Assembly (NCBI RefSeq): GCF_000689395.1 | Contig: NZ_HG966617.1 | Location: 1,954,677-2,018,676, forward strand | Direction: 5' to 3' | DNA length: 64,000 nt | DNA from: Candidatus Phaeomarinobacter ectocarpi | GTDB taxonomy: Bacteria; Pseudomonadota; Alphaproteobacteria; CGMCC-115125 | Shown here: positions 59,442 to 60,526 of the stretch, piece by piece | Layout of the letters: each line of letters opens with the position of its first letter | Numbering within the stretch: the stretch's first letter is position 1 | Made by a program: the position numbers and the translations under genes | The notes under the pieces: generated by a model | Seen by the model: the letters and a program-made list of their open reading frames with translations, nothing else | Databases searched by the model: none | Told to the model about the DNA's origin: nothing

Positions 59442-59516
59442 CTGCCCCACCGCCCCCGCATTTGGGAAACGCCGTTCCCGGCTGATAGATCAAGGGTCAT
59501 CAAAAGGATGACACAT

Positions 59517-59981
59517 ATGAAAGAGACATTTCAGGTTCGGGCTATCGGCCATGTAGAAGCAGGCCGCACAGACCCCATCGACGATGACTGGGACGCCGTT
59601 CCCGCCGCCATCGTGCTGGATGACCGCTTTGACGAAGAAGCCCTCATGGGCCTCGATGCCTTCAGCCATGTGGAAGTGATCTACCTCTTCCACCAGGTGC
59701 CGGACGAAGAGGTCGAGGGCAAAGCCCGCCACCCACGCGGCAACAAGGACTGGCCCCGCGTCGGCATATTCGCCCAGCGCGGCAAAGGCCGCCCCAACCG
59801 CCTCGGCGCCACCATCGCCCGCGTTGACCGTGTCGAAGGCCGCACCCTCCACATCACCGGACTGGACGCCATTGACGGCACCCCTGTACTGGATTTGAAA
59901 CCGGTCATGAAGGGCTTCCTGCCGCGCACAGAGGTTAGCGAACCCACATGGGCTGGTGAGATCATGGCGAGCTACTGGTAA
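59517..59981 (+). CDS. TrmO-like (TsaA/VirR domain) SAM-dependent tRNA methyltransferase family protein
   Basis: The 154-residue protein contains the TsaA/TrmO core: FQVRAIGHV at the start, VGIFAQRGKGRPNRLGATIARV (family motif F..R...RPN.LG) and LHITGLDAIDGTPVLDLKPV. TrmO methylates N6 of t6A37 in tRNA-Thr, but the shorter relatives vary. The ATG at 59517 follows AAGGA at 8 nt and is preferred over the one at 59508. Confidence 0.88.
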   Translation: MKETFQVRAIGHVEAGRTDPIDDDWDAVPAAIVLDDRFDEEALMGLDAFSHVEVIYLFHQVPDEEVEGKARHPRGNKDWPRVGIFAQRGKGRPNRLGATIARVDRVEGRTLHITGLDAIDGTPVLDLKPVMKGFLPRTEVSEPTWAGEIMASYW

Positions 59982-60017
59982 GGCAACCGCCAAATAGCCA
60001 ACGACGTGGCCAAAGAG

Positions 60018-60048
60018 TGGATTGTCCGGTCAAGCCGGACAATGGCGT
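60018..60048 (+). repeat. Palindromic intergenic repeat, copy 1
   Basis: A 31-nt hairpin unit with stem TGTCCGG / CCGGACA and core GGTCAAGCC, bounded by TGGAT and ATGGCGT. The inverted copy lies 37 bp on. It is non-coding, between the TrmO-like gene and the VOC gene. Confidence 0.8.
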
Positions 60049-60085
60049 CAAGGGGCGTCAAAGAGCGTTTCGGTTCTCCTTTCAC

Positions 60086-60116
60086 ACGCCATCCCCCGGC
60101 TTGACCGGGGGATCCA
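60086..60116 (-). repeat. Palindromic intergenic repeat, copy 2 (inverted)
   Basis: On the minus strand it reads TGGAT-CCC-CCGGTCAAGCCGG-GGG-ATGGCGT, the same 31-nt unit as copy 1. The only changes are two paired stem triplets (CCC/GGG in place of TGT/ACA). The pair forms a REP/BIME-like inverted duplex. Confidence 0.8.
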
Positions 60117-60145
60117 TCCGGCACAGCAAACAGGGAGCGAGCAAA

Positions 60146-60526
60146 ATGAAACTCAACCAGGTCACCGTCAGCGTGACGGACATCCCCCGCGCGATTGCAT
60201 TCTATGAGCAGCTGGGCATGTACCTCATCGTCAAGGACGACCACTACGCCCGCTTTGAACTCCCCGACGGAGACACATTCTCCATCCACGTGGCAGACGA
60301 CGTGCCCCCGTCAGGTACCATGGTCTATTTCGAGTTTGAGGATGTGGACATCGCCGTCCGTGACGCCGAAGCCCGCGGCCTCACCTTCACCATGCAGCCA
60401 ACCGACCAGTCATGGCTGTGGCGCGAAGCCTATATCTCAGACCCGGACGGCAACCAGCTGTGCTTCCTGCAGGCCAGCCCCAACCGCCGCTTCCCGCCAT
60501 GGCGGGTCGACGGGCGCACGTCCTAG
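60146..60526 (+). CDS. VOC-family protein (glyoxalase-like)
   Basis: The 126-residue single VOC domain has MKLNQVTVSVTDIPRAIAFYEQLGMYLIVKDDHYARFELPDG, FSIHVADD, and SDPDGNQLCFLQA. The final Cys replaces the common Glu metal ligand of glyoxalase I, so metal-dependent chemistry is uncertain. The start follows AGGGAG; longer forms would translate the palindromic repeats. Confidence 0.88.
   Translation: MKLNQVTVSVTDIPRAIAFYEQLGMYLIVKDDHYARFELPDGDTFSIHVADDVPPSGTMVYFEFEDVDIAVRDAEARGLTFTMQPTDQSWLWREAYISDPDGNQLCFLQASPNRRFPPWRVDGRTS

Follow-up and report, generated by a model that had tools for sequence, protein, structure and literature searches.

A tag-inward pair of CGTC-class palindromic repeats in an alphaproteobacterial genome, and a clade of GIY-YIG nucleases as a candidate for their mobilisation

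Short palindromic repeats that carry a conserved tag are among the commonest repeats of bacterial genomes. A 2013 survey by Di Nocera et al. (PMC3733652), as far as its accessible text extends, splits these elements (REPs) into a GTAG and a CGTC class, the latter with TGTC and CCTC as allowed variants of the tag, and places most of them in intergenic DNA, downstream of genes. For the GTAG class the enzyme is known--the HUH tyrosine transposase termed RAYT. For the CGTC class that text reports no association with transposase genes and no RAYT flanked by such repeats, and the question of the enzyme was left open (PMC3733652).

The window analysed here is a stretch of 64,000 nucleotides from the genome of Candidatus Phaeomarinobacter ectocarpi (termed here G000; 3,415,905 bp in a single contig). 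It contains an inverted pair of tagged palindromes, which lies just past a stop codon, between co-directional TrmO-like and glyoxalase-like genes (Table 1). The original prediction, made from the letters of the window, described two inverted 31-nucleotide units that share a core and differ only in two stem triplets. This description is accurate: the units are complementary at 25 of 31 positions, all six mismatched positions belong to those triplets (TGT/ACA versus CCC/GGG), and within the window the exact core, CCGGTCAAGCCGG, is found only at the two arms. Each arm is predicted to fold by itself into a 9-bp stem with a 5-nt loop (as DNA, -9.7 and -11.1 kcal/mol; z -4.4 and -3.2), and the whole 99-nt pair into one long imperfect hairpin (-27.5 kcal/mol; z -5.0). 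A search of the window against Rfam returned no match, and no tRNA was found as an insertion site for the pair. As a point of annotation, an automatic gene caller could begin the glyoxalase gene at a GTG at 60017 (window 60017-60526, plus strand), which would give it a false N-terminus consisting of the translated REP pair.

Table 1. Coordinates of the repeat pair, its surroundings and the nuclease gene (window positions unless preceded by the contig, C1)
Feature	Position	Strand	Description
TrmO_N family gene (PF01980)	59508..59981	+	upstream of the insert
Insert carrying the REP pair	59986..60143	.	about 158 bp, ends approximate; junction in G002 and G003 without insert
REP unit, subfamily A	60018..60048	+	stem TTGTCCGG-TCAAG-CCGGACAA; TGG tail outside, tag GGCG (= CGCC) inside
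Spacer between A and B units	60049..60085	.	37 bp; no second genomic copy
REP unit, subfamily B	60086..60116	-	stem TCCCCCGG-TCAAG-CCGGGGGA; inverted relative to A, giving a tag-inward (TT) heterodimer
Glyoxalase family gene (PF00903)	60146..60526	+	downstream of the insert
Type I GIY-YIG gene of G000 (L196)	C1:1620073-1620354		about 96 aa; between B and A units of the window's A/B family

The palindrome is repeated elsewhere in the genome, on which the original prediction had made its own survival depend: 43 matches with up to three mismatches were found in G000, as against none for the reversed pattern, and a looser pattern gave 52, a few of them chance-like. Two main types of copy can be distinguished, namely A (TTGTCCGG..CCGGACAA) and B (TCCCCCGG..CCGGGGGA, or with a mismatch). 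An inverted B copy lies within 80 bp of 20 of the 27 A copies, the tags facing inward in 16 of these pairs and outward in 4; the spacers vary from pair to pair. The remaining seven A copies adjoin two further palindrome types, and one B/B pair occurs, at 2759972. Because A is so regularly paired with an inverted B, the difference between them is that of a fixed heterodimer and not of compensation at a single locus. Hence the paired substitutions that had been taken as a sign of selection for the hairpin are compensatory when the two sequences are compared, but represent two fixed subfamilies and no compensation at the window locus itself. Among 48 aligned copies, the TGT/ACA type accounts for 27 at the G-C/C-G position, and B-type variation includes non-compensatory changes (C-A at one pair in 6 of the 48 and C-T at another in 8). 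The BIMEs of E. coli are likewise fixed heterodimers. Within the CGTC class, heterodimers are reported for many families in the available text of the 2013 survey (PMC3733652).

Three peculiar arrangements were seen among the copies of this family. At C1:1000688-1000800 (L019) the loop of an A unit that adjoins a B unit is replaced by another complete palindrome, CCCCCGACTTGATCGGGGG--that is, a REP nested within a REP. At L025, L026 and positions 428832, 435380 and 452989, a longer palindrome type (TGGATCCCACCCCTCCGGTCAAGCCGGAGGGCTAAAGGGTCACC...), which resembles a B unit with a nested hairpin, is repeated beside A units. And at one locus (L018:1453-1675, which is C1:692753-692975, and L158) an A/B pair lies inside an open frame of 74 codons; pair and spacer are identical over about 108 bp in G000 and in a second genome of the genus (G002), while the surroundings differ by at least 9%, so that the segment is possibly REP-derived coding sequence or the product of a recent exchange.

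The family agrees with the CGTC class, as described in the accessible text of PMC3733652, in stem, loop, tail and dimer structure. Where that class has stems of 8-9 bp beginning with AT and loops of 4-5 nt, the window family has a 9-bp stem beginning with AT (ATTGTCCGG/ATCCCCCGG) and the loop TCAAG; where it has a 3-nt tail, mostly CCA, the family has TGG.../...CCA; and, as in that class, the copies are intergenic and many, mostly inverted dimers, including heterodimers (43 copies, with 20 A/B inverted pairs). The differences concern the tag and its orientation. The tag of the window family, CGCC, is a one-base variant with no occurrence in the survey by term search of its available text, and the same pattern search applied to other genera returns GACG/CGTC; tag-inward dimers, moreover, are described in that text as rare (PMC3733652), whereas they form the majority of the A/B pairs here. 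Apart from its variant tag, the window feature appears to be an unexceptional representative of the known CGTC class.

A gene associated with these repeats is found elsewhere in the same genome. At 1619968-1620456 the order in G000 is A-B, a GIY-YIG gene, A-B, whereas G002 has a single A/B pair; on account of this difference, 59 genomes were searched with the GIY-YIG profile (PF01541) and the flanks of the matches were scanned for REPs. The product of the gene in G000 matches PF01541 with an E value of 6e-17 and retains the GIY-YIG motif and the catalytic Arg and Glu. It belongs to a GIY-YIG subfamily, termed here type I, of about 96 residues with the signature GTLYxGxT...REKxxKxW...NPxWxDL, in which Y, R27, E64 and N83 are invariant across 13 aligned proteins. 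One further intergenic site exists in four states among the four genomes of the genus: G003 is empty; G000 has one cognate REP, of the same stem type as that of G001; G002 has a different REP pair; and G001 has a REP-GIY-REP element of 525 bp, in which two tag-inward REP dimers of about 100 bp, in direct repetition, enclose the gene. G002 as a whole contains 16 A/B copies and no cognate (L196-like) gene, and its two type I genes adjoin other REP families.

The second type I gene of G000 (L235, C1:430093-430374) lies beside other palindromes (CCCTCCGGTCAAGCCGGAGGG and related sequences), a context that suggests that each REP family has a nuclease of its own; a small clade with similar flanks is made up of its relatives in G001 and G002. 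The L196 protein, for its part, groups in the tree with a gene of another family (L240, in G006) and not with relatives from the genus, which hints at horizontal arrival.

For the class-wide comparison an automatic motif rule assigned 26 of 62 single-domain GIY-YIG loci to type I. By a strict scanner, a REP was present within 150 bp at 13 of these 26 loci, at 2 of the 36 others and at none of 23 uvrC genes. The two flanked 'others' (L252 and L253) are damaged type I genes by sequence, and both were among ten further loci that were moved to type I on their protein sequence, at a time when the flanks of these two were already known. A tree built without use of the flanks places all 76 type I rows that were finally compared in one branch. 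A profile of the 13 aligned type I proteins has matches in 136 of 385 genomes of the class, from which a second set of 40 loci was taken; ten loci at places already counted were dropped as duplicates.

A locus was counted as flanked if a hairpin within 200 bp of the gene had a GTC or GCC tag on its outer side and a CC tail on its inner side. By this measure 53 of the 76 distinct type I loci are flanked by a correctly oriented tagged hairpin, 34 of them on both sides, as compared with 0 of 26 other single-domain GIY-YIG genes, 1 of 23 uvrC genes and 4 of 72 windows located 500-700 bp away (72 of the 76 loci being long enough for this control); the corresponding Fisher p values are 5e-11, 1e-8 and 4e-17. 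The proportion is 20 of 36 in the first set (14 of 26 for the automatically assigned loci) and 33 of 40 among the loci fetched after the hypothesis had been formed, a set that is not random but combines the best-scoring matches (L274-L303) with one match, the first listed, from each of 20 further genomes. The type I loci come from 59 genomes, 46 of which have at least one flanked locus. Without the tail requirement the count rises to 57 of 76, as against 0-4 of 76 for shuffled flanks. All 53 flanked genes belong to a single branch (97/94) of a 100-protein tree, the branch that holds the 76 type I rows.

The arrangement is also regular in its details. Usually a minus-strand REP lies upstream and a plus-strand REP downstream, so that the CCA/TGG tails face the gene and the tags point outward; the distance from the upstream REP to the start codon has a median of 24 bp and clusters at 19-26 bp (near 22), and the distance from the stop codon to the downstream REP has a median of 20 bp. 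Likeness between the two REPs of a locus is 88%, as compared with 53% between loci, and none of 10,000 permutations gave a within-locus likeness that high. Hairpins in the wrong orientation are frequent as well (29 of 76 loci), in part because the count takes in neighbouring dimer partners and symmetric stems. By the full measure 23 of the 76 type I loci have no tagged hairpin, several of these having other palindromes instead.

The gene and the repeats co-occur at the level of genomes too: a type I gene is present in 8 of 9 REP-positive genomes versus 11 of 50 others (p 2.5e-4), where REP-positive means true hairpin matches (two matches in G001 were judged non-REP and the genome counted as negative) and where the pattern detects CCGG-type stems only, so that the negative genomes may hold other REP families. 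G037, with 10 REP matches, lacks a clear type I gene (best E value 1.8e-16). A tblastn search of plasmid records with the G000 protein found 33 records, and among the 16 that were fetched a CGTC REP lies within 200 bp of the gene in 13: Neisseria gonorrhoeae, Azospirillum lipoferum, Sinorhizobium meliloti pSymB, three Shinella, Aeromonas caviae, two Rhizobium, Sinorhizobium C101, Sphingobium, Neorhizobium and Photobacterium. None was found at that distance in the Planktothrix, Spirosoma and N. aromaticivorans records. The N. gonorrhoeae record is a chromosome-sized 'plasmid', and its gene is inside a dRS3-type array. Type I proteins were absent from 50,697 phage records, and direct repeats of at least 40 bp around the gene, present at 7 of 75 type I and 2 of 25 other loci, are not a general mark. 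In other words, one clade of GIY-YIG proteins is tightly associated, in a fixed orientation, with CGTC REPs, and across the class this link is strong and specific.

From this association we infer that the type I nuclease mobilises the repeats, and it is a candidate for the missing enzyme that spreads CGTC REPs. It might do so by recognising its own tagged hairpin in single-stranded DNA or in an extruded cruciform and nicking or cutting there; repair or replication of the cut would then spread REP copies, with or without the gene, and gene-less pairs such as that of the window would relate to the nuclease as REPINs do to RAYTs, as non-autonomous derivatives. The catalytic Tyr, Arg and Glu are retained in type I proteins, and GIY-YIG enzymes of the Slx1 group are reported to cut branched DNA. 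Several points weigh against the model: to our knowledge GIY-YIG enzymes are hydrolytic nucleases and not known transposases, some type I loci lack tagged hairpins, the A/B copies of G002 are without a cognate gene, and G037 contains REPs although no clear type I gene was found in it.

The main rival to nuclease-driven spread, which we regard as doubtful, is that the gene merely invades REPs, as abundant and safe cleavage sites, while the REPs owe their spread to another agent. Homing endonucleases are the best-known bearers of GIY-YIG domains (according to the accessible text of PMC1564403), the directly repeated REP dimers that flank the gene in G000 and G001 are what entry into a REP dimer would be expected to leave, and the REP-rich G002 lacks an L196-like gene. 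Against this, REP copies without a gene vastly outnumber those with one and REP-positive genomes tend to have the gene; moreover, an invading gene leaves the spread of the REPs themselves unexplained.

An improbable explanation is that type I genes and REPs are simply tolerated in the same dispensable intergenic places, or that the hairpins are mere terminators, with no functional link between gene and repeat. It would suit the mostly intergenic location of REPs downstream of genes that is described in the available text of PMC3733652, and also the 19 of 76 type I loci that have no tagged hairpin even when the tail is disregarded. It would account neither for the fixed distance of the upstream REP (about 22 bp before the start codon), the fixed orientation and the likeness of the two flanking REPs, nor for the absence of such flanks from the 26 other single-domain GIY-YIG genes and their rarity at distant windows; nor would a role in termination explain the upstream copy.

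At the window locus, comparison with the congeners bears on the history of the pair. In G002 and G003 the alignment extends as far as the first gene's stop codon and is taken up again shortly before the second gene starts, with 2 bp and 0 bp, respectively, between the aligned flanks, versus 156-158 bp in G000; in both congeners the glyoxalase-like gene starts about 10 bp after the upstream stop codon. The junction in G001 is short and REP-less as well. Since the junction lacks a REP in three congeners, a gain in G000 is the simplest account, and, judged from these alignments, the window pair is a recent insertion, made after this lineage split from its known congeners. Of the A/B sites elsewhere, 19 can be aligned with G002 (8 further fetched loci could not be, given the G002 stretches available): the A/B pair is absent there at 14, and at least one unit is common to both genomes at 5. 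At one such common site the partner unit differs, being A in G000 and another palindrome in G002, and at another a B unit is present in G002 only. The L022 site could not be polarised, as G001 differs there by 1.8 kb and G003 has no match.

No second copy of the window spacer or of the outer flanks of the insert exists in G000, so that it is the units that are repeated and not the DNA between and around them. A MITE with a conserved spacer that moves as a unit was considered and rejected, given these single-copy sequences and the different spacers of the A/B pairs. The unique spacer and flanking DNA of each insertion is explained neither by the nuclease model nor by simple cut-and-paste or copying of the pair. 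No clear target duplication emerged from comparison of occupied with empty sites, at which congener divergence of about 12% blurs the ends of the insertions; the short repeats that were seen (GGCA at the window site, GGCAAGC at L023) are inconsistent between sites.

It is quite improbable that the pair is kept for a host function, whether as a transcript end, an mRNA stabiliser or a supercoiling site between the TrmO-like gene and the glyoxalase gene. In favour of such a role are the strong hairpins that either strand can form and their position, immediately past a stop codon and between co-directional genes; yet in three congeners the two genes follow closely on one another without any hairpin, and from one congener to the next the copies differ at individual sites. 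The pair may affect transcription, but any such effect would follow from the insertion.

The original prediction had also compared the pair to REP/BIME elements mobilised by RAYT transposases. The comparison is apt as regards organisation and mobility, which are REP/BIME-like, but mobilisation by RAYT finds no support: the profile PF01797 (Y1_Tnp) has no match in G000 or in its three congeners, whereas the same search has matches in E. coli and Caulobacter, and among the 59 genomes Y1 transposases show no link to REPs, occurring in 1 of 9 genomes with REPs and in 11 of 50 counted as REP-negative. That the pair is a REPIN moved by a tyrosine (HUH, Y1) transposase, since lost from G000 or unrecognised in it, is very improbable, for although the general anatomy of tagged hairpins and inverted pairs is the same and genomes with REPs but without RAYT do exist, the profile is absent from all four genomes of the genus and does not co-occur with REPs among the 59, the tag is of the CGTC and not the GTAG type, and no RAYT flanked by CGTC REPs is reported (PMC3733652, accessible text, for both the existence of such genomes and this last point).

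The reading preferred here is that the window pair probably is a tag-inward CGTC-class heterodimer, inserted after the split from known congeners, that belongs to a two-part system of tagged hairpins and a GIY-YIG nuclease gene situated between inverted copies of them. With somewhat less assurance, we lean toward the more general view that CGTC-class REPs and this small GIY-YIG clade constitute one mobile-element system, a counterpart of REP/RAYT with a hydrolytic, structure-selective nuclease in place of a transposase. If so, no earlier REP system is known to us that relies on a GIY-YIG nuclease. In the open-licence PMC literature no paper on a link between GIY-YIG proteins and REPs was found, the one joint match, PMC9465073, being unrelated as far as its accessible text goes. 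Such a system would account for how the commonest palindromic repeats of Alphaproteobacteria, the dRS3 repeats of Neisseria and relatives in Gammaproteobacteria have spread, and each nuclease would be matched to its own hairpin family. Moreover, a small and widespread nuclease gene inside inverted REPs, at fixed spacing, makes the question of the CGTC enzyme directly testable at the bench.

The proposed system may be compared with those already described. It shares with the REPINs and BIMEs associated with RAYTs the combination of non-autonomous pairs of tagged hairpins with a nuclease gene between REPs, but differs in that the enzyme there is an HUH tyrosine transposase and the foot is of the GTAG type, whereas here the tag is of the CGTC class (the foot being GGCG/CGCC in the window family), the nuclease is of the GIY-YIG type and there is no RAYT. 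From the CGTC REPs as surveyed in PMC3733652, the accessible text of which is silent on GIY-YIG, the A/B family is set apart by its link to a GIY-YIG gene. The dRS3 repeats of Neisseria, which are assigned to the family CGTC-1 in the same text (PMC3733652), have in N. gonorrhoeae a type I GIY-YIG gene inside such an array, but form large arrays and have another stem sequence. Finally, the single-domain GIY-YIG proteins (UPF0213, bacterial Slx1-like; PDB 1zg2 and 1ywl) belong to the same fold family by profile search (Pfam GIY-YIG), but type I constitutes a separate branch of the tree, and the only branch that is flanked by CGTC REPs.
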